A DNA stretch of 64,000 nt, taken from assembly GCA_015693905.1 (NCBI GenBank), contig CP065161.1:1054001-1118000 (forward strand), given 5' to 3'. Shown piece after piece: positions 4,988 through 26,107 of this stretch. The notes below the pieces were generated by a model. That model made no database searches. It saw only the letters and a program-made list of their open reading frames with translations, and was not told the DNA's origin. The translations under genes were made by a program, and so were the position numbers. The DNA comes from Rhodobacterales bacterium HKCCA1288. GTDB taxonomy: Bacteria; Pseudomonadota; Alphaproteobacteria; Rhodobacterales; Rhodobacteraceae. How positions within the stretch are numbered: the stretch's first letter is position 1; each line of letters starts with the position of its first letter.

Positions 4988-5554
4988 TCACAGCAGCTCG
5001 ACCGCCGCACTGAGCTGTTCAGCGTTCACGTCGATGTAACGCTGCGTTGTGCTGATATGGCTGTGTCCCGCCAATTCCGCCAACAAGCGCACGCCCACGC
5101 CCTTGTTCGCCAATCTCGTTATATATGTCCTGCGTCCCGAATGGCTTGATGCATCCTTGAGCCCCACAGCCTTATAGATGTCCAAGAACAGCTGGCACAT
5201 GGTGTTGGCAGAGAAGTGCCCGCCTTTCTGGCTCTCAAAAAGCGGGCGACTTAGATCAGCAAGGTACAATCCCGCTGCATATTCCGCTAGCGCACGGCGC
5301 AAACGCTGGTTCAGGTAAACTGTGCGTGTCTTACCGCCCTTGCTTTGCGCTGCGGTTAGGATGAACTGCTCACGCACGTTACAGTCTTCATCAAACACAT
5401 CGCCTCGCGTCAGCGCGGCTAGCTCCTTGGCCCGCAGCCCTGCGTAGAAGCTGAACAGGATGATGGTTTCGTCACGAGTTGGATGACGACGGCTGCGGCA
5501 GTAGTGTAATACACGGCGCAGCTGGGCTTCGTTGAGCGTCTGTGCTTGGCGCAT
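4988..5554 (-). CDS. Tyrosine recombinase, catalytic domain only
   Basis: A 188-residue integrase carrying the full catalytic set: R41 in GLRAKEL, a lysine in SKGGKTRT (K72 or K75), H138 and R141 in HSGRRTYITRL, H164 or H166 in GHSHISTTQ, and nucleophile Y173. The usual N-terminal core-binding domain of about 100 residues is absent, and the ORF begins almost directly at the catalytic domain. It lies at the edge of the accessory region next to the cox cluster, so it may be the element integrase. It could also be an internal recombinase: it is about 21 kb from the tRNA-Cys attachment remnant, whereas island integrases are usually next to the att site. Confidence 0.85.
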   Translation of the reverse strand: MRQAQTLNEAQLRRVLHYCRSRRHPTRDETIILFSFYAGLRAKELAALTRGDVFDEDCNVREQFILTAAQSKGGKTRTVYLNQRLRRALAEYAAGLYLADLSRPLFESQKGGHFSANTMCQLFLDIYKAVGLKDASSHSGRRTYITRLANKGVGVRLLAELAGHSHISTTQRYIDVNAEQLSAAVELL

Positions 5555-5737: not shown

Positions 5738-6541
5738 CTACTGCAGCCGCGCAATTCGGCTTAACAGCACCTCGCGCGAAATCTCGCCCACATGTGTGTG
5801 CGCAAGCAGCCCGTCAGTGCCGATGAATAAGGTCACGGGCAGGCCCACCGTGCCATAATGCCGTGCAAGCATCCCGCTTGTATCGATCAGCACGTGTTCT
5901 GGCTGAAGATCATGTTCTGCGAGGTAGCGACTGACATGGGCCGCTGTTCCACCTTGGGATGCCAACAAGAACACGACATCATCACGCTGCGCGGCAACGG
6001 TTGCGAGCATAGGCAATTCACGGCGGCAGGGCGGGCACCACGTGGCCCAAAGATTGATGATGATCGGCTTATCTGAAGCGACGAGTGATGTCAGAACTAG
6101 GCTTTCGCCCTCGATGGTCGCCAAAGGATCTCCAGGCAATGCCACAGGCTCGCGGGGCGCAACATCCAACAGGATTGCTTGCCACACGATCACGCCTGCG
6201 CAGAGCGCGGATGCAGCAGGAACAACGGGCAACGACCGCCACAAGGCCCAAGCTGTCACGGCTGCAACACCAACTGCAGCCCCAGCCACAGAGAAGCCGC
6301 CTTGCCAGATCGCTAAGATGCGCCAAGGCTCTTCGGCAAAGCTGGGCCAGAATTCGATCACATGGCCGAGGCGAGCACCAATAAACCCCCAAAACACGGT
6401 TGTGCTGGACCAGTTGCTTAATGTGCGAGCTTTAGTTGAACGTGCAAAGAGCTCTGCCACAGCCACAAATACGATCACGCCAAGCAGTGCTGCAAAGCGT
6501 TCAATACTGAGAACAAATGGGCCGAGGTCGATTGCGGACAT
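5738..6541 (-). CDS. Membrane protein: Lgt-like domain fused to TlpA-type thioredoxin
   Basis: A 267-residue protein in two parts. Residues 1-125 are membrane segments carrying motifs of prolipoprotein diacylglyceryl transferase: GARLGHV (55-61) and WQGGFSVAG (79-87). Residues 140-267 form a TlpA/ResA-like thioredoxin domain with CPPC at 169-172 in WATWCPPCRRELP and a cis-proline-like VGLPVTLF. I infer a membrane-anchored periplasmic thiol reductase; the Lgt-like part is too short for a complete transferase and may only be an anchor. It is flanked by the integrase and DUF genes, so it travels with the island. Confidence 0.8.
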   Translation of the reverse strand: MSAIDLGPFVLSIERFAALLGVIVFVAVAELFARSTKARTLSNWSSTTVFWGFIGARLGHVIEFWPSFAEEPWRILAIWQGGFSVAGAAVGVAAVTAWALWRSLPVVPAASALCAGVIVWQAILLDVAPREPVALPGDPLATIEGESLVLTSLVASDKPIIINLWATWCPPCRRELPMLATVAAQRDDVVFLLASQGGTAAHVSRYLAEHDLQPEHVLIDTSGMLARHYGTVGLPVTLFIGTDGLLAHTHVGEISREVLLSRIARLQ

Positions 6542-6604: not shown

Positions 6605-6937
6605 TCAGTATTCCTCAGCCAACATTACCGTGAGCACCCGCGCAGTGACGGTTTCATCTGCGGGGTCCTGCGAGTGCAGGGTGTAGTCGAGGTCGTAGTA
6701 ATCAAATTTCCAAAACACCTGATGTTCACCCCAATAGAACGACCCAAAGTCATGCTCGCCATATGGATCATTGTCTGGTGTAAAATCGTCATAGGCTTTG
6801 ACAAGGTCAAATACGGCATAGACCGCGTCATGACCAAGTGCCGCTATGCCCCGTGTGATCGCCACACGACAGCCCGTGAAGCTCTGCCGTGCGTGATCAT
6901 TAAGTGCTCTTATTCGCTCAACATCGGGTTCAGGCAT
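6605..6937 (-). CDS. DUF3768-family protein
   Basis: A 110-residue protein with the family pattern of DUF3768: RIRALNDHAR near the start, NDPYGEHDFGSF in the middle, FWKFDYYD, and RVLTVMLAEEY at the very end. Function is unknown. Members are common on plasmids, phages and integrative elements of Alphaproteobacteria. It overlaps the upstream DUF6641-like gene by 8 bases, so the two are probably co-translated. Confidence 0.8.
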   Translation of the reverse strand: MPEPDVERIRALNDHARQSFTGCRVAITRGIAALGHDAVYAVFDLVKAYDDFTPDNDPYGEHDFGSFYWGEHQVFWKFDYYDLDYTLHSQDPADETVTARVLTVMLAEEY

Positions 6938-7388
6938 TTGCAGTAGCCCGCACTGCCCCCGGCTTGATGCGGGGTTCTCGCTGTGTGGCTTTAGCTATGG
7001 CACTGTCCAATTCTCCGGTAGATGCAGCGGCAATGAATGCATCTAGTACAGGCTCCACTTCTTTGAGTGTTTTGACGAACACTGCATTGTTGGTGCCATC
7101 AGCTGCAATCACACGTGCTCCATAACGACACTGCACATACCAGCCTCCGTCCTGCTCAAAGAACCAAGGCCGCACACGGCGATGGGTTTGAACTGAGACC
7201 CGTTCCCCATGCTCGTTGTTCATCCACTTGTGTCGTTCGACCCTGTGGTCCTTACCCTCAAGTGCCGCTGTATAAACCAACTTTTGCTCTTTGAGCCCCG
7301 CCACGAGCTTGTCACGTCGTGCAATCACAGGATCACGTGTGTTGGTTTTGGTGACTGTCTTGAAGTTGAGTTTTGCCAATGCATTCAT
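6930..7388 (-). CDS. DUF6641-like small protein
   Basis: A 152-residue protein beginning MNALAKLNFKTV. A basic N-terminal half is followed by RPWFFEQDGGWYVQCRYGARV and a C-terminal helix-rich segment. The layout matches what I recall of DUF6641, a family of unknown function found in alphaproteobacterial mobile elements. It forms a two-gene unit with the DUF3768 gene. The assignment rests on recalled similarity and no catalytic motif is visible. Confidence 0.65.
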   Translation of the reverse strand: MNALAKLNFKTVTKTNTRDPVIARRDKLVAGLKEQKLVYTAALEGKDHRVERHKWMNNEHGERVSVQTHRRVRPWFFEQDGGWYVQCRYGARVIAADGTNNAVFVKTLKEVEPVLDAFIAAASTGELDSAIAKATQREPRIKPGAVRATANA

Positions 7389-8426: not shown

Positions 8427-8813
8427 TTAGTTTATTTTTGGACCGGGATTATGGGTAGGGACAGCACGATCACTTGCCCTCATCTTGCAGTCTTCTGGCC
8501 CACACTCCATCGGCGGCAGCTTATTATAGCCATTGAGCACGTAAAGCTGTGTCTGTTCATCAAGCTGATCCCAAATGCTAAAAAAGGTACCGCGTTCCTC
8601 AGATGTCATCTCAAGGCAAGCTGACTGGATGGCTTCTCTAAGATGCTGTGCCACACGATCTTCCATATCGCCGAAACAGGCAGTTTCTTGGCGCAGGCAG
8701 CAGTCAACGGCCCGCAACACCTGCAATTCAGCCGCATAGAAAGGAGCCTGGGAGCGCCACAGCACTGGTAGGCCGGATGTTTCGAGCAAATCTGCCACGT
8801 CATCATCTATCAA
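8427..8813 (-). CDS. Hypothetical protein, acidic, 128 residues
   Basis: I do not recognise this protein. It is mainly helical in appearance, with several Cys (AVDCCLRQETACFGD, later MECGPEDC) and a Pro-rich C-terminus. It lies on the minus strand between the HUH-like gene and the AAA+ operon. No close overlap links it to either neighbour. The start at 8813 is the first ATG of the frame and is not strongly supported. Confidence 0.5.
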   Translation of the reverse strand: MIDDDVADLLETSGLPVLWRSQAPFYAAELQVLRAVDCCLRQETACFGDMEDRVAQHLREAIQSACLEMTSEERGTFFSIWDQLDEQTQLYVLNGYNKLPPMECGPEDCKMRASDRAVPTHNPGPKIN

Positions 8814-8869
8814 GATGTCTACTTTCTGAGGCGCACCGCCCCTGTATCTGCCAAGCCTAATCGTACGGA

Positions 8870-9595
8870 TCAGACCCTATGTTCTGGCATCTTCTTTTGG
8901 ATCAAAGAAACGGCTGGCTGAAGGCTACCAGCCACATCACAAAGCGAGGTCAGTTTTGCGAATTTCAATTCACCGCCACGGCCTAAGTAAGTGCAGATAG
9001 CGCGGAGGTGCTTGATCAGCAAGGCGTGCTTATTGTCATCTACAAACTGATCCGCGAGCGATGCTGCATATCGAAACCAAGGCGCGTAAAGGTGCAGCTC
9101 AGTTGCTAGAGCCGCAGATTTTGTTCGGAACGCAGTTTCCGAGAATGCATCCAACCTGACGTCTCGGACCGCTCCGTGTAAGTGCATCATCAGGGAGAAG
9201 CGTTCGACGTCATGCAGATCAATTTTACAATCAAATCCTACGTAATCGCATGAGTGATCAAAGAGCTCAGAAGATGCGTATTTCTCAAAGATCATCTTCA
9301 GAGGCTCAGGAAACTCAATGCGGATTGACGTTGAGATAAGTCCAGCCTTGCCGCCATGTTTAGGCAAATTCATGACGGTGATATTGCCTTCATCCCAGAT
9401 AACGCAGTTGCCAAAATCGTGGCATTGGAACACGTCAGCCTGAAATCCAGTTATCGTTGATGTGTATGGATTGGGATCATTATCGTGATAAGTGAAGCAG
9501 AACTCAGCATCCAAATTTATGATGCAGATCCAATCCCGAACAATTTGATCCAAGATAGCATTTAGCTCTGTCACTCCAGTGCTGTGATTATTCAT
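8870..9595 (-). CDS. Hypothetical protein, last gene of the AAA+ operon
   Basis: A 241-residue protein without a recognised domain. It is rich in aromatic and acidic residues (NLDAEFCFTYHDNDPNPY, HDFGNCVIWDEGN) and looks globular and soluble. I chose ATG 9595 because it overlaps the stop of the upstream gene as ATGA; the longer frame to 9661 would run 70 bases into that gene. It is the distal member of the chain running from 11677 down to 8870. Confidence 0.6.
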   Translation of the reverse strand: MNNHSTGVTELNAILDQIVRDWICIINLDAEFCFTYHDNDPNPYTSTITGFQADVFQCHDFGNCVIWDEGNITVMNLPKHGGKAGLISTSIRIEFPEPLKMIFEKYASSELFDHSCDYVGFDCKIDLHDVERFSLMMHLHGAVRDVRLDAFSETAFRTKSAALATELHLYAPWFRYAASLADQFVDDNKHALLIKHLRAICTYLGRGGELKFAKLTSLCDVAGSLQPAVSLIQKKMPEHRV

Positions 9596-9894
9596 TTTGA
9601 AACACCTCGCACGTAGTCTTCGAGATACTGAAACTGCTGGTGCTCCGACATTTGCTTCCATTCGTCAGCAAAGACGCGGCTTGCCTCCCGTGATAGGTTT
9701 TTAAAGATTGAGCTTTCAATTGCATCGGACAGGTCACGTTCTAGGATGTCCAAAAGGTCATAAAACGGGTTCACCTGTTGATAATCATCTGCCAATGCAG
9801 TTAGTGCGCGGCGCTGGTAAACGAGGTCCCGAATGTCAGGATCTACAACCTGCGAGAGCCCCTTCAATTCCAACATCAGTGTTTTTCTATCCAT
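9592..9894 (-). CDS. Hypothetical protein, 100 residues
   Basis: I do not recognise this small helical protein (begins MDRKTLMLELKGL). ATG 9894 has a good ribosome site (GGAG 8 bases upstream) and overlaps the previous gene by 8 bases; the longer frame to 9933 has neither. Together with the genes on both sides it forms a translationally coupled string. Its length and charge pattern would suit a small subunit or adaptor, which is inference only. Confidence 0.6.
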   Translation of the reverse strand: MDRKTLMLELKGLSQVVDPDIRDLVYQRRALTALADDYQQVNPFYDLLDILERDLSDAIESSIFKNLSREASRVFADEWKQMSEHQQFQYLEDYVRGVSK

Positions 9895-10120
9895 GATCTT
9901 TCTCCAGCATGGTGCAGATTTGTGTTTGTTCATCTGCGGTGAGGGTTGGCCAACGCGCCGCGAATGCCCGGGCTTGGGTTTCGGGCAGCAAAGCTTCGGC
10001 TAAGGGCACAAAATCTGAGGATGCGATTTTGTAGGTGTTTGCAGCATTGATCACGCGGCGTAGCCCATAGAGCTCAAAAAGCTTCAATTCCGTGGTGAGG
10101 CTTTTGTCAGGATCGCTCAT
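9887..10120 (-). CDS. Hypothetical protein, 77 residues
   Basis: A short helical protein (begins MSDPDKSLTTELKLF) with no recognised domain. Its ATG overlaps the stop of the AAA+ ATPase gene (ATGA) and its end overlaps the next gene by 8 bases. The tight coupling on both sides argues that it is a real gene whose product is needed in proportion to the ATPase. Confidence 0.6.
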   Translation of the reverse strand: MSDPDKSLTTELKLFELYGLRRVINAANTYKIASSDFVPLAEALLPETQARAFAARWPTLTADEQTQICTMLEKDHG

Positions 10121-10815
10121 GGCGTGCCTCCGGAGACTTGGTTCAGGAGGCTGGCAACCGTGCGAGGCTGAGCGGAGGCGGCAGGCGCAAACTGCCGTGC
10201 CGCGTGTACTTGTTCTTCGAGGTAATCGATGAAGTCACGTGCATCGCCAGTGAAGTTAGCCATCAGCTGCTGAACAACAAATAAGGAGACATTTGCCCCC
10301 TCAGCGGTGAGGATGGCATGTGCACGCGGCACCCAATCCATTGGCGCAGGCTTTTTGACTTCTACACAGCGCATACGGCTTTGTAGAGCCGGCTTGAGCT
10401 TCTTGATGTAGTTGGTGCTGGCCAGAAGCTGCACGCTCTTGTGCTGTTCTATAAAAGTACGAGTTTTGCCAGGGAAAGCATCCTCGATCTCGTCAATCTC
10501 ATCGACCACGATGATTGCGGGCGTACCGACAGGCCACATCTGCATCTGGGCCATATTGAGCATCTTGTCATAGATGCCTTTGGCGGCATCCGCGCCGTTG
10601 AGTGTAAAGTCTTCACATTCAATGCCTGCTTGAGCAAACTGGGTTTCTGCAATCAAACGCAAAGCTTCTGACTTACCAGTGCCGGGCTCACCGTAGAGCA
10701 AGAGAGGCTTGGAGGGGCGTGCATGGGCATAGCGATCAATGATCGCCGCGAAATTGGGATCGGCAAAGACGAGGTCATGCACAGACCGCGGCCTGTGACG
10801 TTCAGCGAAGGTCAT
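10117..10815 (-). CDS. AAA+ ATPase resembling an RFC/clamp-loader small subunit
   Basis: A 232-residue AAA+ protein. It opens with FAERHRPRSVHDLVF, like the YRPKxxxDIVG start of RFC and clamp-loader subunits. Further motifs are Walker A GEPGTGKS, Walker B AIIVVDEIDEI, sensor-1 LLASTNYIKKL, and an SRC-like arginine-finger segment LQSRMRCVEV. ATG 10815 is preceded by AAAGGA; the longer frame to 11022 reads through the upstream intergenic region. I infer a DNA-replication helper of the island. It lacks the C-terminal collar domain of a full clamp loader, so partner proteins may be the small ones encoded right after it. Confidence 0.72.
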   Translation of the reverse strand: MTFAERHRPRSVHDLVFADPNFAAIIDRYAHARPSKPLLLYGEPGTGKSEALRLIAETQFAQAGIECEDFTLNGADAAKGIYDKMLNMAQMQMWPVGTPAIIVVDEIDEIEDAFPGKTRTFIEQHKSVQLLASTNYIKKLKPALQSRMRCVEVKKPAPMDWVPRAHAILTAEGANVSLFVVQQLMANFTGDARDFIDYLEEQVHAARQFAPAASAQPRTVASLLNQVSGGTP

Positions 10816-10885
10816 GGGATATCCTTTCGGGGGAAGAGAGCTTGCGCTGCGGGACGTAATTAGAGACGCCCCGCAACGAGGTTTG

Positions 10886-11677
10886 TTACTCTGCTGCCGG
10901 AACAGCTGCGCTCGTGATACGCACTTTCGGCGACATGGAGGCAAAGAGTTTGGGCGCAAAAGTTTTGACGTCTTCTGTGCGCCGCTTGGCAACGTCAGCT
11001 GCCTCAAGACCTTTCTGATCATCCTGCGCTTTTTGATCGAGATACTTGCCCGATGCGATCAGCACCGTATCGATTACCTTGGCATCGTTGTTGCCAAACA
11101 AAAGATCACCCGTGCCATCAGGATTGCAGCGGATCAGACCCACCACATAGTCTTCGTCATATTCGCTGTTGGGTTGAATGAACTCAGGTAGATCAAAGGT
11201 GGCAACTGGGATGCGGGCCATATTAAGACCCATAACTGCCATTTGCTTGTAGTCTTCGGCAGTCATTGTCTTGCCGTCCTTGATTTTCTGCAAGCGACGT
11301 ACCTCTTCTACCCCCCCGCATTCTTCGATGTAGCTCGTGAGAGTTTGCTCCTCTGGCTTTAGGTCATAGGCAATCGTAAGGACCCTTGAATAGGCCATTT
11401 CTCGATTGCCTTCTTTGCCAAACACATAGCGGATCACTTTGAGGCCAAGGCTTGTGCTTGTCCGTGGCTTCATATTGCGATCTGTGAGCAAAGCATTCAA
11501 AGCGCGACGCTTGGCTGTGTCGTCTTTCATTTCTGCAAACACGGCATAGCAACGCTCTAAAATAGCGTAGAGCTCATCATTAGAGGCTTTAAGGGTACCC
11601 TCTTCCCAGGCAGCGCGCGCCGCTGAGATTTGGTCAAGCGTACGTTCAAGTTGAACTTTATAATTTGTATCAGACAT
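10886..11677 (-). CDS. Hypothetical protein, first gene of the AAA+ operon
   Basis: A 263-residue soluble protein, begins MSDTNYKVQLERTLDQISA, with a helical charged N-terminal two thirds and a more beta-like C-terminal part (IRCNPDGTGDLLFGNND). I do not recognise a family. AAAGGAC precedes the start at a good distance. It heads the minus-strand chain and is separated from the ATPase by 70 bases, so it may be made in larger amounts than the downstream proteins. A structural or DNA-binding role is possible but unproven. Confidence 0.62.
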   Translation of the reverse strand: MSDTNYKVQLERTLDQISAARAAWEEGTLKASNDELYAILERCYAVFAEMKDDTAKRRALNALLTDRNMKPRTSTSLGLKVIRYVFGKEGNREMAYSRVLTIAYDLKPEEQTLTSYIEECGGVEEVRRLQKIKDGKTMTAEDYKQMAVMGLNMARIPVATFDLPEFIQPNSEYDEDYVVGLIRCNPDGTGDLLFGNNDAKVIDTVLIASGKYLDQKAQDDQKGLEAADVAKRRTEDVKTFAPKLFASMSPKVRITSAAVPAAE

Positions 11678-11795
11678 GTTCGTCCTTTCTATCAGGCAGT
11701 GAAGTGCCTTCGGGCGGAAGGCTGTGCACCATCGCGAATCGACCGCGCGACACCAATCATGTGGACAAACCGCTTTTTTGACTTACCTAACGAAG

Positions 11796-12593
11796 GTGTT
11801 GGAACTCGTTGAGTCACGTGGCTCATGCCACAGAAGCCGGTCACGCGATGCGCCGACCTTCAAACACGCTCCGCCTAGCTTTAAGTTTGCATATGAGAGT
11901 AAAAAGGCACCCAACCCACCCTATCGTGGTGCCCCAAGCTGGAAATGCTCAGTCTATTACTATTGGTGGCTATACTTACGTTACAACGAAGATTACCGCG
12001 ACACTTGTGCCAATGACGGTGTGGGCGCATGCGCAAAGCTCTATCAAGACTTTGGCAATATCTACGGACAAACGTTTCGATCTTGGTGGGCCGACCATGA
12101 CCATTTGTTCACTGAACCAACCGCTGCGGCTCTAACCAAAGATCAACACGCTTTTGGAGCTAATGCGCAAATTGTAGATGTACAGATTGATGTATCCTTA
12201 GGCGCGGAGGCGGTGGAGCGAAGCCTGAAGGAGTTACATGCAAAACTGGTGTTTCCTGAGCGTGTGGCTTTGCATAGATCAGCCGCGATATATCCCGTAG
12301 CCCGCCGCCCTGTTCTCATGAACCTGCATCGTCATCTTGCTGTTTTCAAATGGCGCAAGCGTTGTCCCGACATGTCCGATGAGGACATAGCAGATCACGT
12401 AGGCCATCACGCAGCTGCACAGGCCAATGGCATCTCACGCAGTTACATGGAGCGCCTAGGCCACTCAACCCGCGAGATTGATATCGAGTTAAGGCGGGCA
12501 AAACGCAAAGCAGTGCAGCATGATTTACGTTGCGCTCACCTTCTTATTGCTGGTGTTGGCAAAGGTGAGTTCCCGGTTCGAACCACTAGCTGA
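11796..12593 (+). CDS. Conserved mobile-element protein with YYYWW motif
   Basis: A protein of about 265 residues. Its N-terminal part holds a pattern I recall from proteobacterial integrative elements and phages: GAPSWKCSVYYYWWLYLRYN, then LYQDFGNIYGQTFRSWWADH and HLFTEP. Function is unknown. The start is uncertain: the frame runs back to a GTG at 11724, and GTG 11796 is chosen only because the 46-base gap to the divergent gene would otherwise hold two promoters. A basic helical C-terminal half (LRRAKRKAVQHDLRC) could contact DNA. Confidence 0.6.
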   Translation: MLELVESRGSCHRSRSRDAPTFKHAPPSFKFAYESKKAPNPPYRGAPSWKCSVYYYWWLYLRYNEDYRDTCANDGVGACAKLYQDFGNIYGQTFRSWWADHDHLFTEPTAAALTKDQHAFGANAQIVDVQIDVSLGAEAVERSLKELHAKLVFPERVALHRSAAIYPVARRPVLMNLHRHLAVFKWRKRCPDMSDEDIADHVGHHAAAQANGISRSYMERLGHSTREIDIELRRAKRKAVQHDLRCAHLLIAGVGKGEFPVRTTS

Positions 12594-12738
12594 GATTTAT
12601 GTAAGGTTGATCGCCTTGGGCGAGAAAATTGAATGGTTTACCACAATCTTTGGCAGATTGACCTTACACGCAAAATTTGGCTTTTTACTGTTTGATAACA
12701 TTTGGATGGCTAGTGAACTTCGAGTCACTGCCTAAAAA

Positions 12739-12788
12739 GTTTACTGTGTTAAACCCGTAAACGAGTTTACTGTGTTTGCGCTGTAAAC
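12739..12788. repeat. Symmetrical array of four GTTTAC half-sites
   Basis: The stretch 12594-12913 has no convincing gene but contains GTTTAC at 12739 and 12765 and its complement GTAAAC at 12757 and 12783. The offsets are 18, 8 and 18, so the whole array is palindromic about 12763/12764. It fits a multi-dimer operator or short iterons of an origin. It lies between a plus-strand gene end and a minus-strand small gene. Confidence 0.5.
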
Positions 12789-13117: not shown

Positions 13118-13215
13118 TGGTGATCTCCTTTACGCAGATGTTACGGCCACGTCTCGAAGCAGAGCAACCGAATATTGGCTAAATATCTGTGAACGTTATA
13201 TATTTAGGAGACAAC

Positions 13216-13542
13216 ATGAGCGTAAAACTACTTGAACATTTGAGAGATGAGCTGATTGGCAGTGGCGCTGTACGTAACACGCCAGAGTTTTGTCGGGCCT
13301 GGCTTGGACGCAGTGAGGGGTACATTCGAACACTCCGCAATCACGGAACGGGCCCAAGCGTGGAGACCCTTGCGATCTGTTCTCACAAACTAGGGCATTA
13401 TGCTGAGCGCCTACGTGCCACAGGGACAGCGGAGCACGGCAAACTGGCCCAACAATTTGAGCGTCTCAAAGGCTTGTGTGATCAGAGTATAGCGCGACAT
13501 GCGGAGGCTGTTTGGCGAGACCCAGAAAGGATGTCGGCATGA
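13216..13542 (+). CDS. DUF6626-like small protein with helix-turn-helix pattern
   Basis: A 108-residue protein, begins MSVKLLEHLRDEL, with FCRAWLGRSEGYIRTLRNHG followed by PSVETLAICSHKL. This looks like a lambda-repressor-type helix-turn-helix and agrees with what I recall of DUF6626. ATG 13216 has AGGAG at the right spacing; the longer frame to 13189 does not. It is the first of three genes joined by ATGA or short overlaps. A regulator of the island is possible, but no target can be named. Confidence 0.6.
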   Translation: MSVKLLEHLRDELIGSGAVRNTPEFCRAWLGRSEGYIRTLRNHGTGPSVETLAICSHKLGHYAERLRATGTAEHGKLAQQFERLKGLCDQSIARHAEAVWRDPERMSA

Positions 13543-14202: not shown

Positions 14203-14316
14203 GTGAAACTTTACTATACGCTTAAACGGCTTGGACTCGACACTGATCCCAATGTTAGAAAACCTCAAGACCAGCAGATCGTGCTACTGAACCGTGATGA
14301 GATGATGAGTGGCTAA
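14203..14316 (+). CDS. Possible 37-residue leader ORF before the helicase gene
   Basis: A GTG at 14203 opens a 37-codon frame ending at 14316, overlapping the GTG start of the helicase by 8 bases. The product (VKLYYTLKRLGL...) is not recognised and the ribosome site is weak. It could be a short coupled ORF that sets translation of the defence cluster, or a chance frame. The bases 14029-14202 before it contain nothing I can assign. Confidence 0.3.
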   Translation: MKLYYTLKRLGLDTDPNVRKPQDQQIVLLNRDEMMSG

Positions 14317-17300
14317 ACTTGATGATATAAAACCTGGTGGCAAGGCCAGCGGCATCGTACCAGGTGCCATTGCCGAAATCGTGTCTGTAGAGTGGATTGG
14401 TGATCAAGCCATCAACGTTGTGTACCGCTCTGCAAACGGATCAGTCGCAGAAACCACGCTATACCGAGACGATGAGCATCGCCTTGAGTTAGAGAGTGCA
14501 GGACGCAAGTGGTCCTTCGATGCAGATGGGGCAATGTTACGCCTTGTGACAGAGGCGAACCGGATCAAGCTTGCTCATTTCTTCGACCCCTACTTGGCCA
14601 TCCATACAAGCCTCGTCGATCCGCTACCGCATCAAATATCCGCTGTATATGGTGAAATGCTGTCTCGGCAGCCACTGCGATTTCTGCTCGCAGACGACCC
14701 TGGGGCAGGCAAGACTATTATGGCCGGATTGCTTATTAAGGAGCTTATTGCGAGGAGCGATCTGGAGCGCTGTCTAGTCATCGCACCGGGTAGCCTTGTT
14801 GAGCAATGGCAAGATGAATTGGGAGAAAAGTTCGGCCTCGAATTCGACATCCTCACTCGAGATATGATTGAAAGTTCGAGATCAGGAAACCCGTTCAACG
14901 ATCATAATCGACTGATTGCGCGCTTGGATGTCTTGGCGCGCAATGAGGAGATGCAGGAAAAACTTCAAGCCGCTACCGAATTTGACCTGATCATTTCGGA
15001 CGAGGCACACCGTATGTCAGCCACCTATTTCGGCAACGAGGTTAAGCGAACAAAGCGCTACGAGTTGGGGCAGGTGCTAGGTCGTTGCTGCCGCCACTTC
15101 CTTCTAATGTCGGCGACGCCACACAACGGGAAAGAAAAGGATTTTCAGCTCTTCATGGCGCTTCTCGATGGGGATCGCTTTGAAGGGCGTTTCCGTGACG
15201 GGGTACATGTTGCTGATGTAGAGGACATGATGCGACGGCTGACAAAAGAAGAGCTTCTTCGCTTTGATGGTCGTCCACTCTTCCCGGAGCGACGCGCCTA
15301 CACGGTGAAGTACGAGCTCTCACCTGAGGAAGCGGAGCTGTATACAGCGGTCACTGAGTATGTCCGCAACGAGATGAACCGGGTTCAACGATTTGCGGAC
15401 GACGACGGTCGAAAGAAGAACAATGTCGGCTTCGCACTTCAAATCCTGCAGCGTCGATTGGCTTCCAGTCCGGCTGCCATCTACCAGTCATTGAAGCGGC
15501 GACGCGAACGGCTGGAGGACGAGTTGTCAGCAGCTCGTTTGGCAAAGAAGGGCGCAGCGCCAAAGGCTCCCAGTATCAGTGATGAGATGCTGCGGAACCT
15601 CGACGAATACGATCAAGAAGAAATCGACGAGATCGAAGACCTGATCTCTACTGGCGCCACTACAGCTGAGACCATTGAACAGCTTGAGATCGAGGTTGAG
15701 ACCTTAAAAGGACTGGAGGGAATGGCCGTGCGCGTCCTTCATTCCGGCAAAGATACGAAATGGCAGCAGCTTGATCGCATCCTCGATGATGACTTGATGC
15801 TCGACGCGGATGGACACAGGCGGAAGCTAATCATCTTTACCGAGCCAAAGGATACGCTCGAATACCTGCGCCAGAAAGTTGTTGCCCGTCTCGGTCGTCC
15901 GGATGCCGTTGAGGTCATTCACGGCGGTGTTTCAAGAGAAGAGCGCCGGAAAGTCGTTGAGCGGTTTATGCAGGACCGTGACATGCTGGTTCTGGTTGCC
16001 AACGATGCAGCGGGTGAAGGCGTAAATCTTCAGCGCGGTCACTTGATGGTCAACTATGACCTACCTTGGAACCCCAACAAGATTGAACAGCGGTTCGGGC
16101 GCATCCATCGGATTGGTCAGCAAGAGGTTTGTCACCTTTGGAACCTAGTCGCCAAGGATACGAGAGAGGGTGAGGTCTACGCCCGACTTCTGGAAAAGCT
16201 GGAAGCTGCCCGCGAGGCACTTGGGGGCCGCGTCTATGATGTTCTTGGAGAGCTCTTCGAAGAGCGCGCTCTGAAAGACCTGCTATTTGAAGCGATCCAG
16301 TACAACGAAGACGAAGAAGTCCGAGCTCGCATTTTCCAGACGGTCGATGGGGCTGTTGATCAAAGCCATCTTCTGCACCTCTTGCAGAAGCGTCAGTTGA
16401 CCAGTGATACGATGCCTGAGGCGCGCGTTCAGGAACTGCGTATTGAGATGGAGCGCGCTGAGGCGCAGCGTCTTCAACCGCATCACATTCAGAGCTTCTT
16501 CGTTGAGGCTTTCCAGCGCCTTGGTGGTCAAATCAAACGGCGCGAAGAAGGGCGCTGGGAGATCAAACATGTACCGCTCAGCGTCCGTGAGCGCGACCGG
16601 CAGATTGGAACCGGAGCACCTCTTCAAAAGAAGTACGAACGGATTTGCTTTGAGAAGGACAAGATCAATCAGCAGCCGGTCGCAGCCTTCGTTTACCCAG
16701 GACATCCGCTGCTTGACGCAGTGATCAGTCTTGTCCGAGAGCAGAACGAGCACCTGATGAAGCAAGGGGCTGTCCTCGTCGATGACACCGATGAGGGCAC
16801 AGATATCAGCGCGCTGTTCCTGCTGGAGCACAGCGTTCAGGATGGTCGCACGACGAGCTCTGGAAATCCTAACGTCATCTCCCAGAAGCTCCAGTTCGCG
16901 GCCATCGACAAACAAGGTCAGGTGACAAACGCTGGGATTGCGCCGCACCTCAACCTTCGCCCAGCGACTGCGGAGGAAATCAATGCCGTTGAGCGCCCCC
17001 TAAACGCCGACTGGCTCCGCAGTGATCTAGAGAAGAAGGTCACTCAGTTCGCGACAGTAGAGCTGGCGCAGGGACATGTCGCTGAGGTTCGTGCACGACG
17101 GGTTCCTGAGATCGACAAAGTTGAGCAGGAGGTGAAGGCGCGGCTCAAGAAAGAGATCAACTACTGGGATGCCCGAGCTTTCGAGCTCAAGGAAGAAGAG
17201 AAGGCTGGAAAGAAGATGCGCCTGAACTGGCAGAACGCACAGCGGCGCGCCGAAGACTTGGCTGAACGTCTCAAGCGTCGTCTCGAAGTCATCGAACAGG

Positions 17301-17815
17301 AACGCTTCATCTCTGCTCAGCCTCCAAGAGTTCGGGGAGGCATGATTGTCGTGCCAAAAGGGCTCTTGCGAGAGCAAATGCCAAACCAGTTCGCTGATGT
17401 TGGCTCCGGTTTCTCCGAGGACCCTGTGGCGCGTCGAGAGATCGAAGTGAAAGCCATAAACGCCGTCATGGCTGCTGAGCGTGAACTGGGGAACGAACCC
17501 AGAAGCGTCGAGAACCAGCGTGGGCTTGGTTACGACATCGAGTCCTATGATCCAGAGACCGGCCACCTGCGGTTCTTGGAAGTCAAAGGCCGCGTCGATG
17601 GCGCCGATACGATCATGATCACGCGCAATGAACTCATGGCCTCTCTGAACAAGGAAGAGCATTTCTTTCTTGTGTTCGTGCCGATCTTGAACGGATACGC
17701 GCAGAAGCCAATCTACAGACCCGGGCGCCTCATGACGCGCGAGCCCGAGTTCGGACAGACAGCCATTCAATTTTCAATAAATAGCCTGCTTGAGTGGGCA
17801 GAAACGCCGACATGA
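14309..17815 (+). CDS. SNF2-type DEAD/DEAH helicase with C-terminal DUF3883
   Basis: A 1168-residue superfamily-2 helicase. Walker A GAGKT centres on K135, the DEAH box is D231-E-A-H234, SAT motif LLMSATPHNG follows, and the C-terminal helicase lobe ends with QRFGRIHRIGQ near residue 595. A long charged region leads to a DUF3883-like domain at about 1070-1130 (NQRGLGYDIES, LRFLEVKGR), related to restriction-type nuclease folds. It is the first gene of a three-gene cluster with a DUF1156 methylase and a DUF499 ATPase. It resembles DrmD-like helicases, but drmA and drmB of DISARM are absent. Confidence 0.88.
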   Translation: MAKLDDIKPGGKASGIVPGAIAEIVSVEWIGDQAINVVYRSANGSVAETTLYRDDEHRLELESAGRKWSFDADGAMLRLVTEANRIKLAHFFDPYLAIHTSLVDPLPHQISAVYGEMLSRQPLRFLLADDPGAGKTIMAGLLIKELIARSDLERCLVIAPGSLVEQWQDELGEKFGLEFDILTRDMIESSRSGNPFNDHNRLIARLDVLARNEEMQEKLQAATEFDLIISDEAHRMSATYFGNEVKRTKRYELGQVLGRCCRHFLLMSATPHNGKEKDFQLFMALLDGDRFEGRFRDGVHVADVEDMMRRLTKEELLRFDGRPLFPERRAYTVKYELSPEEAELYTAVTEYVRNEMNRVQRFADDDGRKKNNVGFALQILQRRLASSPAAIYQSLKRRRERLEDELSAARLAKKGAAPKAPSISDEMLRNLDEYDQEEIDEIEDLISTGATTAETIEQLEIEVETLKGLEGMAVRVLHSGKDTKWQQLDRILDDDLMLDADGHRRKLIIFTEPKDTLEYLRQKVVARLGRPDAVEVIHGGVSREERRKVVERFMQDRDMLVLVANDAAGEGVNLQRGHLMVNYDLPWNPNKIEQRFGRIHRIGQQEVCHLWNLVAKDTREGEVYARLLEKLEAAREALGGRVYDVLGELFEERALKDLLFEAIQYNEDEEVRARIFQTVDGAVDQSHLLHLLQKRQLTSDTMPEARVQELRIEMERAEAQRLQPHHIQSFFVEAFQRLGGQIKRREEGRWEIKHVPLSVRERDRQIGTGAPLQKKYERICFEKDKINQQPVAAFVYPGHPLLDAVISLVREQNEHLMKQGAVLVDDTDEGTDISALFLLEHSVQDGRTTSSGNPNVISQKLQFAAIDKQGQVTNAGIAPHLNLRPATAEEINAVERPLNADWLRSDLEKKVTQFATVELAQGHVAEVRARRVPEIDKVEQEVKARLKKEINYWDARAFELKEEEKAGKKMRLNWQNAQRRAEDLAERLKRRLEVIEQERFISAQPPRVRGGMIVVPKGLLREQMPNQFADVGSGFSEDPVARREIEVKAINAVMAAERELGNEPRSVENQRGLGYDIESYDPETGHLRFLEVKGRVDGADTIMITRNELMASLNKEEHFFLVFVPILNGYAQKPIYRPGRLMTREPEFGQTAIQFSINSLLEWAETPT

Positions 17816-20598
17816 CCCAGACTTATAAGAAGAAACTCATCGAAGTTGCCATCCCGCTGGAAGCCATTAACACGGCGTCCATGAAGGAGAAGACTAACCC
17901 ATTTTTGAAGGGACATCCACGAGCGCTCCATCAGTGGTGGGCAAGGCGACCATTGCCAGCATGCCGCGCCATCTTGTTTGCGCAGCTTGTCGACGATCCG
18001 TCCAACTTCCCTGATGTTTTTCCAACTGAAAGTGAAGTTCTTAGGGAAAGACAGAGGCTATTTACGATAATCGAAGACCTAATCGAATGGAACAACTCTT
18101 CGAATCCATCCGTCCTAAAACGAGCGGCAGATGAGATAGAAAAGTCGACAAACGGGGAATTGCCCACAGTATTAGATCCATTTTCCGGTGGAGGTGCTAT
18201 TCCGTTTGAGGCTCAACGCCTTGGGCTTAAAACGGTCGCTAGCGACCTTAATCCTGTTGCGGCACTAATCTCAAAAGCAATGATTGATTTTCCAGCTCGG
18301 TTCTCTGGAAGGCCACCTGTACATGATGGTGCTCGCGAGAAGCACAGCTACGAGCAATCCGAGGGACTTTCTGAGGATATTAGATACTACGGAAAGGTCC
18401 TGAGGGACTTGGCCGAAGAAAAAATTGGAAAATACTATCCGACTATTTCAATTAAGGGGAGTGGCGAGATGAGGGTGGCAGCGTGGCTTTGGAGCCGCAC
18501 TGTCCCATCGCCCGACCCAGCATTTGGAGGAGCTCACGTTCCTATCGCGGCAACCTTTGTTCTCTCCAAAAAGAAAGGGGCGGAGGCATTCATAGAGCCC
18601 GTGGTGGATAAGTCATCGGGTAAAGTGGATTTTTTGGTGCGCTACTCCGGTGATAAAGACCTCCTTAACACGGCGGCGCAAGGAACCAAGAAAGGAAGGG
18701 GGGCCAACTTTGTCTGCCTACTTTCAAATTCACCCATTACTCCGGACTATGTGAAGAAGTGTGGGCAGCGAGGTGAAATTGGCACTAAACTAATGTGCAT
18801 AGTTGCCGAGGGTGATAGAAAAAGAATATACGCATCACCAACGGTTGAGCACGAGCGCATTGCAACGCACTTGGCGCGCCCCGATATAAATGAAATCACA
18901 CTCCCTCAGCACTCACAGTATATAGGTGTGCTGGGGTATGGCATGAGTACATTCTCTGACCTATTTTCTCCGCGCCAGGCGATGTGCCTTAAAGAACTTA
19001 TAGATTTACTGCCCGAGGTAAGAGACAGAGTCGAGGAAGATATTAATATTTCCAGACAAGGCGCGGGCGAGTCCTTCAGTGATAAAGAAAAGAGAGAATA
19101 TATTCGAGCCATCAACCTTTACTTGGGTTTTGCTATAGATAAGCTTGCAGATTTTATGAATGCGCATTGTGGGTGGAATGCTGCCAATGAAAATATATCA
19201 CATATGTTCGGACGCCACGTCATACCAATGGTTTGGGATTATGTAGAGGGAAATCCATTCGGCGGTATGATTGGAATTGACAGCATCTGCCGAAGCGTTT
19301 CTGGCGGCCTTGCCAATGCTGGGCTGGGCTTGGTTGGAGACGTCCAGCATACTTCCGCTCAGACTGTATCTGTTGAAGAAAAGTGCGTCGTAGTGTCTAC
19401 TGACCCACCGTACTATGATAATATTCCATACGCGGATATTTCTGATTTTTTTTATGGCCTGCTTAGAAAATCGCAAAAATTTGCATTTCCAGAGATCATC
19501 TCGACACTTAGTGCACCCAAATCTGAAGAGCTTGTAGCTGATAGAGTAAGATATGGAGGACCAGAGGCGGCAGAGTCGTTTTTCTTGGACGGCATGACCC
19601 AAGCCATGGTGAACTTACAGAGACAAGCGTCAGATGATTTCCCAATCACAATTTATTATGCATTTAAGCAGAACGAGATTGAGACAGAAGGCGTGGCTTC
19701 AACTGGCTGGGCTACTTTCCTTCAGGCAGTCTTCGATGCGGATTTATCAGTTGTTGGGACGTGGCCAATCCGCACCGAAAACTCAGTGCGCCGTCGCGCG
19801 TCTAAGAGTAACGCATTGGCAAATTCCGTTGTCTTGGTCTGTCGAAGAAAAGTCCTATCCGCAGACAAGATCACCCGCGCCGAGTTTATCCGCGCCCTGA
19901 AACGTGAACTCCCCCCGGCCATCGCCGAGCTTCAGGCTGCCAACGTCTCCCCGGCCGACATGCCGCAATCGGCCATCGGCCCCGGCATGGGTGTCTTCTC
20001 GCGCTACAAGGCGGTGCTCGAGGCTGACGACAACCCGATGACGGTCAAGACTGCGCTGCAGCTGATCAATGCCGAGCTCGACGAGTTCCTGAACGACCTG
20101 CATGGCGAGTTCGACGCCGACACCCGCTTTGCCGCGACCTGGTTCGAGCAGCACGGTAACGACAAGGGCGACTATGGTTCTGCAGACAACCTAGCGCGCG
20201 CGCGTGGGATATCGGTGGAAAGCGTGAAACATGCCGGGATCGTAGAGAGCTCTGCAGGCAAAGTCCGCATCTTAAAGCGCTCTGAACTAGACGCCGATTG
20301 GGACCCGCTTGAAGATGATCATCTCACGATCTGGGAATGCTGCCAGCACCTGATCCGCGTTCTTGAAAACGATGGTGAGTATGCGGCAGCTGTACTTGTC
20401 AAGAAGATCGGCAGTGACAAGGCTGAAACGGTCAAGGATCTCGCCTACTATCTCTACGAGGTTTGCTCGACCAAGCGTCAGGACGCAAAGGAGGCGACGG
20501 CCTACAACGGGCTGATCGCCGTGTGGACCGAACTGACACGGCAGGCCGCTACCATCCAAATTGAAGACCAGTATCGCCAGTCGGCGATGGACATTTGA
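17812..20598 (+). CDS. DUF1156 DNA adenine methylase, composition mosaic
   Basis: A 928-residue protein. The N-terminus has the DUF1156 signature (NTASMKEKTN, then ALHQWWARRPLPACRAIL). The SAM-binding motif LDPFSGGGA starts at D122, and the catalytic DPPY sits at residues 531-534, typical of N6-adenine or N4-cytosine methylases. ATG 17812 overlaps the helicase stop (ATGA). From roughly 18000 to 19850 the DNA is visibly AT-rich with rare codons such as ATA and AGA, whereas the parts on both sides match the GC-richer neighbours. This suggests exchange of the central segment, possibly changing target specificity. It probably marks host DNA for the defence cluster. Confidence 0.87.
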   Translation: MTQTYKKKLIEVAIPLEAINTASMKEKTNPFLKGHPRALHQWWARRPLPACRAILFAQLVDDPSNFPDVFPTESEVLRERQRLFTIIEDLIEWNNSSNPSVLKRAADEIEKSTNGELPTVLDPFSGGGAIPFEAQRLGLKTVASDLNPVAALISKAMIDFPARFSGRPPVHDGAREKHSYEQSEGLSEDIRYYGKVLRDLAEEKIGKYYPTISIKGSGEMRVAAWLWSRTVPSPDPAFGGAHVPIAATFVLSKKKGAEAFIEPVVDKSSGKVDFLVRYSGDKDLLNTAAQGTKKGRGANFVCLLSNSPITPDYVKKCGQRGEIGTKLMCIVAEGDRKRIYASPTVEHERIATHLARPDINEITLPQHSQYIGVLGYGMSTFSDLFSPRQAMCLKELIDLLPEVRDRVEEDINISRQGAGESFSDKEKREYIRAINLYLGFAIDKLADFMNAHCGWNAANENISHMFGRHVIPMVWDYVEGNPFGGMIGIDSICRSVSGGLANAGLGLVGDVQHTSAQTVSVEEKCVVVSTDPPYYDNIPYADISDFFYGLLRKSQKFAFPEIISTLSAPKSEELVADRVRYGGPEAAESFFLDGMTQAMVNLQRQASDDFPITIYYAFKQNEIETEGVASTGWATFLQAVFDADLSVVGTWPIRTENSVRRRASKSNALANSVVLVCRRKVLSADKITRAEFIRALKRELPPAIAELQAANVSPADMPQSAIGPGMGVFSRYKAVLEADDNPMTVKTALQLINAELDEFLNDLHGEFDADTRFAATWFEQHGNDKGDYGSADNLARARGISVESVKHAGIVESSAGKVRILKRSELDADWDPLEDDHLTIWECCQHLIRVLENDGEYAAAVLVKKIGSDKAETVKDLAYYLYEVCSTKRQDAKEATAYNGLIAVWTELTRQAATIQIEDQYRQSAMDI

Positions 20599-20610
20599 GG
20601 CTTATTTTCC

Positions 20611-23600
20611 ATGGCAAAGAGTACGCGCCAATACGTTTTTGAAGGTATGGAGCACATGCAGAAGGGCCTGCAGCCCTTCGTTATGCAGAGGCTTGAGGCC
20701 GGGCTGGGCAAAGGCTGGCCGCAAGAAGTAATTTCACAGTTTCCTCATTGGAGGCCCGAAAGCAACGGTAAATTCACCCTCGATACACAGAAGCTTCTGC
20801 AGATCATGGAGCGGCTCTGGAACGATGCTTTCCGCGACGTACTCGAACGCACCCATCGATCCATTGTAAACGAGCTGGTCGATGTCAGGAACAAACTCGC
20901 CCACGATGGCAAGTTCACCTACGACGATGCGGAACGTGCTCTGGACTCCATGCGGCGACTGCTTGAGGCCGTCAGTGCCGGAGAGAGCGCAGAAGAAATT
21001 AGCAAGATGCGCGAGTCGATCTTGCGCACAAAGTTCACAGAGCTTGCCCGGAACGAAGAACGCCGGAAAACAGCGGCAACAACCATTTCCACGGAGACTG
21101 TGTCGGGTCTGCTGCCGTGGCGTGACGTGGTCGAGCCACATCAGGACGTCGCGACTGGCGAGTTCCAGCAGGCCGAGTTCGCTGCCGACCTTGCAAAGGT
21201 TCACAATGGCAGCGCGCCGCCTGAGTATCGCGACCCACGTGAGTTCTTCAGCCGAACCTACCTCACCGACGGTTTGAGCCGCTTGCTTGAAGGCGCAGCC
21301 AAGCGCCTGTCGGGCAAAAGCGGTGATCCAGTTGTCGAACTGCAAACCAACTTCGGTGGCGGTAAGACGCACTCGATGCTAGCGCTCTACCACATGGTTG
21401 GAGAAACGCCCGTCGCGGACCTGCCGGGTCTCGATCAGCTTCTTTCCGATCATGGCCTAAGCGTGCCGAACAAGATCAACAGAGCCGTGCTTGTTGGTAC
21501 GTCCACTGGCCCATCTGATGTTGCCCAGCGCGAGAAGGAATACGGGCGCCCGATCAACACCACCTGGGGCGAGCTTGCGTTCCAGCTCGGTGGTGAAGAC
21601 GCGTTCCAAATGATTGCTGACCACGACCAAAAAGGCATCGCGCCTGGGTCGAACCTGCTTGAAGCGATTTTCAAGAAATGTTCGCCGTGCTTGATCCTGA
21701 TCGATGAATGGGTCGCCTACCTCCGCCAAATCTACAAAATTGAAGGACTTCCTTCCGGATCATTCGATGCAAACCTTTCGTTTGTTCAGTCACTTACAGA
21801 GGCGGTGAAGGCATCACCTCAGACCCTATTGGTCGCATCGCTGCCCGCTTCCCAAATTGAGGTCGGTGGTGAAGGTGGACAGGAAGCCCTTGCACGGCTC
21901 AAGCAGACGTTCAGCCGTGTAGAGAGCTCTTGGCGGCCTGCGTCTCAAGAAGAGAGCTACGAGATCGTTCGTCGTCGTCTCTTTAAGGAAATCCCCGGTG
22001 ACAAATACATGCATCGGGACAACACGCTTAAGCAGTTTGCCAAGCTCTACCGAGAGAACCCCAGTGACTTCCCACAAGGGTGTGCGGATGAAGACTATCG
22101 GCGGAAGCTTGAGAAAGCCTACCCAATACATCCTGATTTGTTTGATCACCTCTACACAGCTTGGGGCTCGCTGGAGAAGTTCCAACGGACACGTGGTGTA
22201 CTACGTTTGATGGCACAGGTCATCCATGAGCTGTGGATGTCAGGTGATCCGTCGGTCATGATTATGCCCGGTAGCGTTGCGATCAGTTCTCCGCGCGTTG
22301 AGCCCGAGCTGCTCCACTACCTTGATGTGTCGTGGCAGTCGATCATTGCAGGTGACATTGATGGCGTGAACGCTACGCCCTATAAGATCGATCAGTCCGC
22401 GCCTAATCTTAACCGTTACTCCGCAACACGCCGCATCGCGCGCACAGTGTTCATGGGCACAGCGCCTTTACATACCCAAGAGAACAAAGGCCTCGATGAC
22501 AAGCAGATCAACCTTGGCGTAGTACAGCCCGGGGAGAAGATCGCAATCTTCGGAGATGCGCTTCGCCGTCTAAGAGATCAGGCCAAGTTCATGCATGGTG
22601 ATCTCGGGCGCTATTGGTACTCGATGTCGGCAAGCTTGAACCGAGTTGCTGCAGATCGCGCGGCTCAGCTGGAAGAAGCGCTTGTTCTCGTCGAAATCGA
22701 CAAGACGGTGTCAAACTACATCAACAGCATTGGAGATCGCTGCCATTTTGATGCAGTGCAAGTCGCACCGGACAGCTCCAGTGAAGTGCCAGATGAAGCT
22801 GGAGGCATCAGGGCTGTTGTCCTCGGCGTCAACCATCCACACACGGGCCGAGACGGTTCGGACGCGATGGTCGAGGTCAAGGATATTCTGCTCCAACGCG
22901 GGAACACCCCTCGTGTTTATCGCAATACTCTTGTGTTCCTTGCCCCGGACAATCGTCAGCTCGACAACCTCAAGGATGCAATGCGTGCCTCTCTCGCTTG
23001 GGATGGGATCGTGCGTGATGCGGACACAGGAAGGCTGGACCTGAAAACGAGTGATATCGCCTTAGCTAAGGAAAAGGCACGCGAGGCCAGAGAGACAGTC
23101 CAGACCCGTCTCAAGGAGACATGGTCCTACTTGATCTATCCGTACCAAGACACTGCGCAATCTGATGTCGAGTTCGCATCTGCCCGCATTCCTGCTCAGG
23201 ATGGTGTTCTTGCCCGTGCGAGCAAGAAGCTTGTAAGCGATGAAGCGCTACTGCCCGAAATCGGACCTGAGCGGCTCAATCGCGAACTTGAGAAATACAT
23301 CTGGCAGGACAAGCCGCATTTGAGCTTAAAAGACCTTTGGGAGTATCTCAACCGATACACCTATCTGCCTCGGCTCAAGAACAGAGAGACCCTCATTAAG
23401 GCCGTGCAGGCCGCTATCAGTGGAATGCTGCCGGGTCCATTTGCCTATGCTGAGCGGTTCGATACCTCGAGCAGTGCCTACGCAGGACTATCGATTGAAA
23501 GGTCTTCGAACCCACTTGTGATAATCGACAGCGAGTCGATCATCATCAGGCCTGATGTTGCGGAAGCAAACCGACCAGCACCCAATGCTGAACCAGAGCC

Positions 23601-24522: not shown

Positions 24523-25323
24523 TTACGCGGCCATTTTCAGTTTCATAGCGGGTGTGATGCCGCCGATGCCCATGTTCGGGCGGTCGTTGTTATAAGTCCA
24601 GAGCCATTGTGTGGCCTGATCCTGTGCCTCCTCGATGCTTTCGATGATGTATTGATCCAACCACTCATGCCGGACTGTCCGGTTGTAGCGTTCGACATAA
24701 GCGTTTTGCTGCGGCTGTCCGGGTTGGATGTGCTGGATAGTGATACCCTGCTTCTCGGCCCATATTCTGAGCTTCTCGCTGATGTATTCCGGGCCGTTGT
24801 CGACCCTGATCGTGCCAGGTTTTCCGCGCCATTCGATGATGCGGTCCAAGCTGCGGATGACCCGTTCGGCGGGCAACGAGAAGTCAACCTCGATCCCCAG
24901 CCCTTCTCGGTTGAAGTCGTCCAGCACATTCAGCAGCCGAAAAGCACGGCCGTCGCCAAGACGATCTGCCATGAAGTCCATCGACCAGGTCACATTGGGC
25001 GCGTCTGGCACCGCCAGAACATCAGGCTTCTCCCGTTTCAGCCGCTTTCGGGGCTTGATCCGCAGGTTCAGTTCCAGCTCGCAGTAGATCCGATAGACGC
25101 GTTTGTGGTTCCAGGGATGCCCCTTCACGTTGCGTAGATGCAGGAAACACAGGCCAAATCCCCATGTCTTGCGCGCATCCGTCAGCCCCGTCAGCAGATC
25201 GGCGATCACCTCGTTCTCGGCCTTCAGCTTTGGGCTGTACCGATAACAGGTCTCGCTGACCCCGAAGGCCCGGCACGCCAGCGCAATGCTGACACCCCGT
25301 CGTTCCACCGCCGTTTCGGCCAT
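24523..25323 (-). CDS. IS3-family transposase OrfB, DDE integrase domain
   Basis: A 266-residue rve-type integrase domain. The DDE residues lie in [20 protein letters not shown] and [10 protein letters not shown], and the protein ends with the usual [12 protein letters not shown] motif. The upstream HTH_21-like part ([12 protein letters not shown]) is present, so nothing seems missing. It is expressed as an OrfAB fusion by frameshifting from orfA; the annotated ATG is probably not the main start. Confidence 0.9.
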
Positions 25324-26060: not shown

Positions 26061-26063
26061 TAA

Positions 26064-26107
26064 TTGCAAATCCGTGTACACCGGTTCGATTCCGGTACTC
26101 GCCTCCA
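26064..26107 (+). other. 3' half of a tRNA-Cys(GCA) gene, probable att site
   Basis: The 44 bases read as the 3' part of a tRNA-Cys. They contain an anticodon loop TTGCAAA (GCA at 26066-26068), the 3' anticodon stem TCCG, T-arm ACCGG-TTCGATT-CCGGT, acceptor strand ACTCGCC, discriminator T and encoded CCA. Upstream sequence is AT-rich and cannot form the 5' half. The break falls in the anticodon loop, a classic crossover point for tyrosine recombinases. So this is most likely the displaced 3' end left by integration of an island to the left. The intact tRNA gene was not found in the window. Confidence 0.8.

Follow-up and report, generated by a model that had tools for sequence, protein, structure and literature searches.

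The stretch of DNA analysed here, called the window throughout, comprises 64,000 nucleotides of the genome of Rhodobacterales bacterium HKCCA1288 (contig CP065161.1, positions 1,054,001 to 1,118,000), and our subject is an operon on its minus strand, at 8427 to 11677, that encodes an AAA+ ATPase resembling the small subunits of clamp loaders. We find that this operon almost certainly represents the core of an element that integrates at transfer RNA (tRNA) genes and that recurs, with much of its gene content, in other bacterial genomes. The principal features, in window coordinates, are the following:

10886 to 11677, minus strand: A263, the 263-residue product of the gene heading the operon, predicted to be mostly helical; 29 loci compared
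10117 to 10815, minus strand: AAA+ ATPase of 232 residues with an RFC/gp44-like AAA module and no collar, assigned from phrog_168, RFC5, a conserved start and motifs
11724 to 12593, plus strand: vfA, a divergent gene whose true start may be internal, at 27 of 29 A263 loci
4988 to 5554, minus strand: YR188, a minimal tyrosine recombinase with a catalytic domain only (PF00589, 6.7e-28)
6930 to 7388, minus strand: DUF6641-like core gene (PF20346 at 6.8e-05, below the cut-off; phrog_31551 at 1.8e-14)
26063 to 26107, plus strand: distal attachment site, an exact 45-bp copy of the tRNA-Cys(GCA) 3' end (G000:C1:1045844-1045888)

The tRNA-Cys(GCA) gene lies 8.1 kb to the left of the window (G000:C1:1045815-1045888), and 252 bp from it is a gene for a full-length tyrosine integrase (G000:C1:1046140-1047636). 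From the tRNA gene to the distal repeat of its 3' end the element measures 34.3 kb, and it thus carries both marks of a tRNA-targeted island, a direct repeat of the tRNA 3' end and a tyrosine integrase. Since the operon lies inside this repeat-bounded interval together with the integrase, it belongs to a tRNA-integrated element. An earlier examination of the letters and open reading frames (ORFs), the sequence-only reading, had offered a module of an integrative element as one of several possibilities, and the 45-bp repeat, the integrase beside the tRNA and the recurrence of A263 with the ATPase in bounded elements elsewhere all bear that suggestion out; it had recognised the operon itself and overlooked vfA, YR188 and the element ends. 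Neither a relaxase nor type IV secretion genes turned up when the larger ORFs of the window element were run against Pfam, the cargo of the relatives being covered only in part.

Relatives were sought with A263 profiles in genome samples that overlap and in each of which the genome studied here is itself counted. The first profile matched 3 of 385 genomes at class level, 5 of 398 at phylum level and 7 of 290 at family level, and a broader one matched 11 of 292 at order level. The comparison covers 29 A263 loci (30 rows, one gene being split by a stop), including three (L004, L005 and L006) from the ATPase search; left aside were G181 (a partial A263 at a contig start), L002 (the last 25 residues of A263 only), L003 and L039 (ATPase and no A263) and one half of the stop-split G831 gene. 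At 27 of the 29 loci the ATPase gene follows A263 directly on the same strand, the ATPase of L006 being cut by the contig end, and vfA stands divergently upstream in as many, being absent from G1058 and G801a. YR188 occurs within 15 kb, on the stretch fetched, at 24 of 29; G1093a, G1106, L005 and L006, which do not have it, lie at contig ends or on a short contig, and for the first G1196 copy the only YR188 is its neighbour's, 18 kb away.

A second copy of the tRNA 3' end was found in 14 of 25 regions searched (10 of 16 and 4 of 9), the other 11 having no repeat in the stretch fetched, which in several was limited by the contig. The 16 elements bounded in this way range from 10.6 to 45.9 kb and occupy genes for tRNA-Cys (seven), tRNA-Phe (five) and tRNA-Met, -Arg, -Lys and -Pro (one each); A263 and the ATPase occur together in 15 of them. 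In the first set of 11 bounded elements the integrase and YR188 are present in all, A263, the ATPase and the DUF6641-like gene in 10 and vfA in nine, while all five of the second set have A263, the ATPase and the DUF6641-like gene, G1058 being without vfA. The first G1196 copy (G1196x) has neither integrase nor YR188, and both G289 and G1196 hold elements in tandem. As defined by this gene content, the core of the family comprises the full-length tyrosine integrase, the A263-ATPase pair, the divergent vfA, YR188 and the DUF6641-like gene.

Within this core, A263 and the ATPase are bound to each other more closely than to the rest. Over 28 loci the correlation of their pairwise identities is r=0.92 (permutation p 0.001), higher than that of A263 with any other gene tested: vfA (r 0.69, 27 loci), YR188 (0.53, 24 loci), the DUF6641-like gene (0.52, 24 loci), an HUH-like gene (0.48, 11 loci), a DUF6626 gene (0.48, 24 loci) and the integrase (0.35, p 0.007, 20 loci). 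Adjacency itself favours a high correlation, but vfA also adjoins A263. The pattern reads as that of a co-inherited two-protein functional unit, to which vfA would be attached more loosely. Between the window element and its nearest relative, L001, the ratio of nonsynonymous to synonymous substitution rates (dN/dS) is 0.04-0.15 for 11 element genes, a mark of strong purifying selection; these values and the same-strand adjacency of A263 and the ATPase show that the ORFs are not due to chance.

The ATPase is the only protein of the operon that family searches recognise, as the sequence-only reading had supposed. Its ORF is present as described there, although the start proposed at 11022 is too far upstream: relatives keep an ATG at 10815, which is preceded by GAAAGGA and gives the protein of 232 residues, and the gene consequently does not overlap A263, from which it is separated by 70 bp. 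The match to phrog_168 (the PHROG clamp-loader model, T4 gp44) has an E-value of 2.9e-20 and covers model positions 11-210 of 314; a profile of the family matches RFC5 at 6.1e-29 (the best RFC chain, residues 4-204 of 320) and gp44 at 3.5e-19. Both the phrog_168 and the RFC5 alignments stop close to the end of the ATPase, and their extent confirms what had been suspected, a clamp-loader-like protein without the C-terminal collar that holds the clamp-loader pentamer together. Of the copies, 27 are complete enough to be read for motifs; Walker A and the sensor 1 TN are kept in all of these and the arginine finger in 26; with Walker B these make up the AAA module of clamp loaders, which the family possesses. 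The alignment used for the RFC search (A2) retained L016, a weak ATPase match (1.2e-5) with no A263 in its 2.7 kb. Profile comparison places the ATPase nearest to clamp loaders. With the collar absent, either the ring would be organised by A263 or some other protein, or the ATPase would act as helicase loaders do.

Searches with the ATPase listed 88 of 295 genomes, the matches shown being mostly long frames that encode other AAA proteins, about 25% identical; mainly the strong ones were followed. As a single query it matched no plasmid and, among phages, 11 records of Pseudomonas jumbo phages (26% identity), and no relative was confirmed among viral contigs. The sequence-only reading would have yielded to a known phage or plasmid replication family with these exact partners; none appeared, and A263 as a single query matched no plasmid or phage record.

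No credible Pfam match was obtained for A263 in 19 members, two single-member matches standing at 0.005 and 0.007 and a weak match to Arm_3 (0.053) being taken as chance, and none at all for vfA in 18 members. The AlphaFold2 models have a mean predicted local distance difference test score (pLDDT) of 77.0 and a predicted template-modelling score (pTM) of 0.50 for A263, and of 76.5 and 0.66 for vfA. The C-terminal 85 residues of vfA come near to DNA-binding helical domains (6pax, Z 3.6, 2.7 Å over 52 residues; 8btg_C, Z 2.4, 2.9 Å over 55), a likeness that we judged too weak to use. The intergenic stretches between vfA and A263 share no clear common motif by eye. Between vfA and the DUF6626 gene, at 12738-12788, lies a pair of 25-nt direct repeats, 80% alike and separated by 26 bp, which are a possible operator or possible iterons.

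The remaining genes of the operon and of the element that concern us are these:

9887 to 10120, minus strand: p77, a small accessory protein, in four distinct elements (window, L001/G289, L002 and L004)
9592 to 9894, minus strand: p113, accessory, a paralogue of p128 (p113 profile matches p128 at 1.1e-32)
8870 to 9595, minus strand: p241, accessory, in the window, L002 and L038, with a weak G1196 match (7.8e-07)
8427 to 8813, minus strand: p128, accessory, a paralogue of p113, in the window and L002
7727 to 8368, minus strand: HUH-endonuclease-like protein, in a minority of elements (PF23343 at E 0.055; HxH and Tyr)
6605 to 6937, minus strand: DUF3768 gene, accessory (PF12599, 2.3e-33)
13189 to 13542, plus strand: DUF6626 gene, frequent in the element family (PF20331, 6.2e-36)
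14309 to 23946, plus strand: HmaABC anti-phage defence system, complete, carried as cargo (PADLOC: HmaA E 0, HmaB E 0, HmaC 1.6e-289)

All the operon ORFs named earlier are in the window ORF list on the minus strand, and the overlaps described for them are there: ATGA between the ATPase and p77 (10117-10120), 8 bases between p77 and p113 (9887-9894) and ATGA between p113 and p241 (9592-9595), with revised starts at 9894 for p113 and 9595 for p241. The four proteins proposed as partners of the ATPase fare differently, A263 being near-constant while p77, p113 and p241, like p128, occur in few relatives; on this distribution the genes at 9887, 9592, 8870 and 8427 are classed as accessory and not core. 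Weak Pfam matches of p241 to T7 gene 5.5 (0.2) and of p113 to FliG_C (0.018) were dismissed as chance. In the HUH-like protein all 11 distinct sequences, in an alignment read by eye, keep HxH and a Tyr, and its PF23343 (REP_ORF2-G2P) scores, 14.2 bits in the window and 15.2 in the L041 relative, fall short of the 27.8-bit cut-off. It could be a relaxase, and it is exchanged independently of the ATPase: the L011 copy is 71% identical, the L011 ATPase 28%.

YR188 is nearest by sequence to XerC/XerA/XerD-type chains and its catalytic residues, R-K-H..R-H-Y, are invariant in the alignment; this alignment (A5), also the query for the chain and viral-contig searches, had L044:1881 among its rows. 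That row is a 224-aa tyrosine recombinase beside the integrase (G000:C1 1047881-1048555; L044 1881-2555), an enzyme different from YR188 (25% identity). From G000:C1 1049939 to window position 4744 lie molybdenum-hydroxylase or CO-dehydrogenase-type genes, accompanied by genes for CoxE and a pair of XdhC-like proteins; being inside the element, this metabolic cluster may be mobile. At 5738-6541 is a fusion of a prolipoprotein-diacylglyceryl-transferase-like membrane half with a thioredoxin/TlpA-like half, and an IS3-type transposase gene (rve, HTH_21) stands at 24523-25323, near the distal attachment site. G045 holds two copies, 36 kb apart and 95% identical, of a 1555-bp block that contains YR188 and the ATPase and breaks off within A263 (L039 7992-9386, L037), and in G289 (G289:C1 453819-498408; L081, L045, L082) two related elements stand in tandem at one tRNA-Cys, the smaller without A263, the ATPase and vfA. 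The cargo of the relatives, of which 64 of 110 listed ORFs were scanned, includes among the matches listed a type IIG restriction gene, Lamassu-like genes, a DruM-like (Druantia) methylase and metabolic genes.

To judge from the sequence alone, the pair could serve its element in replication, in transfer or in the control of recombination. A263 and the ATPase probably help to copy or move the island, and we tentatively favour a role in element-specific replication initiation or loading, a proposal that is possible and still far from secure. We favour it because the AAA module is closest to clamp loaders, because the two genes stay adjacent, diverge in step and are under purifying selection, and because the 10.6-kb element of G876 has no other replication gene that the profiles used recognise (a 206-aa ORF there has a possible HUH motif and no Pfam match). 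On this proposal A263 and the ATPase would form an ATP-driven complex that vfA would help to place on element DNA, and that would start or boost copying of the element around its excision by loading a host replication protein, whether helicase or beta clamp, much like DnaC or a clamp loader; the HUH-like enzyme, where present, would nick the DNA to give a 3' end, and YR188 would resolve multimers. A bolder and rather doubtful extension is that of a whole class of elements built on a two-protein ATP machine, in which A263 would replace the collar of a collar-less clamp-loader AAA protein, and which would load replication proteins on excised element DNA or steal them from an infecting phage.

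Several observations weigh against a replication role. Without a collar the ATPase is not a clamp loader by itself, and Walker B was recognised by pattern in 22 of the 27 copies, nine of these 22 reading NE and not DE. Neither the A263 model, compared with the PDB and viral models, nor the vfA model, compared with the PDB, had a match at E<=0.001 or a Z that reached 5. A search for repeats found no iteron-like origin, giving one 2-copy repeat only. Finally, G801b has A263 without the ATPase, and the bounded element G289a1 lacks A263, the ATPase and vfA while keeping the integrase, YR188, the DUF6641-like gene and the HUH-like gene; it may have arisen by deletion, or may show that an element can do without the module.

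MuB, TnsC and IstB are AAA regulators of recombination, and A263 with the ATPase could in the same manner control recombination, deciding when and where both tyrosine recombinases act. The constant presence of the integrase and YR188 in the first set of bounded elements, and the position of YR188 beside or near the module at most loci, agree with such a role; A263 divergence, however, tracks the two recombinases less than it tracks the ATPase, and the AAA profile best matches clamp loaders, in a comparison that TnsC-type proteins lay outside. We regard control of recombination as unlikely.

Less probable again is that the elements are phage satellites whose pair diverts or jams the replication machinery of a helper phage, for instance its clamp loading. 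The ATPase does resemble phage clamp loaders, tRNA or transfer-messenger RNA (tmRNA) islands moved by a phage are known (PMC12595487), and IMG/VR contig L100 (1-2649) carries relatives of YR188 (77% identical) and the integrase beside phage-like genes, with no A263. Yet neither A263 nor vfA occurs, at E 1e-4, in any of the 80 loci on viral contigs that carry relatives of YR188, and the ORFs scanned in the window element included no recognisable packaging gene, no search having been aimed at packaging. Viral contigs L101 and L104 hold a DUF6641 gene with an integrase. In L101 (3456-4823, 9313-10392) there is an integrase-YR188-DUF6641 backbone with no ATPase, a large protein with an HUH-like motif by eye, and a 359-aa protein that could be a distant A263; this last candidate is unconfirmed (hhalign E 0.0066, probability 5.8, against a best probability of 2.9 among 60 controls tried), and the A263 profile did not retrieve it.

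That A263, the ATPase and vfA are themselves an anti-phage defence system, as the sequence-only reading had also allowed, is very improbable: the elements do hold defence cargo (Hma in the window; restriction, Lamassu-like and Druantia-methylase-like genes among the 64 cargo proteins scanned), with which that idea fits, but the module is near-constant where cargo is variable, and in PADLOC the ATPase has nothing beyond weak AAA matches (8.6e-05 to 6.3e-04), while A263 and vfA have no match at E 0.001. For the operon itself a defence role has no support.

Islands at tRNA genes in which no transfer genes are recognised are common, and little is known of most of the genes by which they are maintained and moved. 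The present comparison puts a name to a recurrent core that can be looked for across proteobacterial families, and whose tight protein pair is directly testable; it also ties the traffic of defence genes, here Hma, to a specific carrier, and raises the mechanistic question of how a clamp-loader AAA module functions when it has no collar.

Among known systems, the ATPase is like T4 gp44 (phrog_168) and the RFC small subunits in its AAA module, Walker A, sensor 1 and arginine finger, and unlike clamp-loader subunits in having no collar, in its partners A263 and vfA, and in the absence of recognisable clamp or loader subunits nearby. Tycheposons are tRNA-targeted integrative elements with mixed cargo, as is the element here; their core gene set is presumably different. 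The names DUF6641, DUF6626, DUF3768, PF20346 and PF20331 were not found in the literature searched, outside which lay preprints and most subscription papers. The SE elements of Vibrio (strand-biased circularizing integrative elements) are likewise integrative, with two tyrosine recombinases, conserved genes of unknown function and variable cargo; their core is intA-CDS2-intB-CDS4, their ends carry 19-bp inverted motifs and their targets, such as yjjNt, insJ and bcp, are not tRNA genes (PMC9345347). The element here uses tRNA 3' ends with direct repeats and has an AAA module, the core proteins being compared by description, and its target places it outside the SE elements. The I55-type tmRNA islands of Pseudomonas resemble it in their tmRNA or tRNA site, direct repeats, tyrosine integrase, defence cargo and lack of recognised transfer genes; they have intY, AlpA and YqaJ in common, and AAA or clamp-loader terms are absent from the text searched, unlike in our element (PMC12595487). 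Integrative elements borne by tRNA genes are already known; the core set described here was not met in the literature searched and, going by the available parts of their descriptions, differs from those of both the SE elements and the I55 class.

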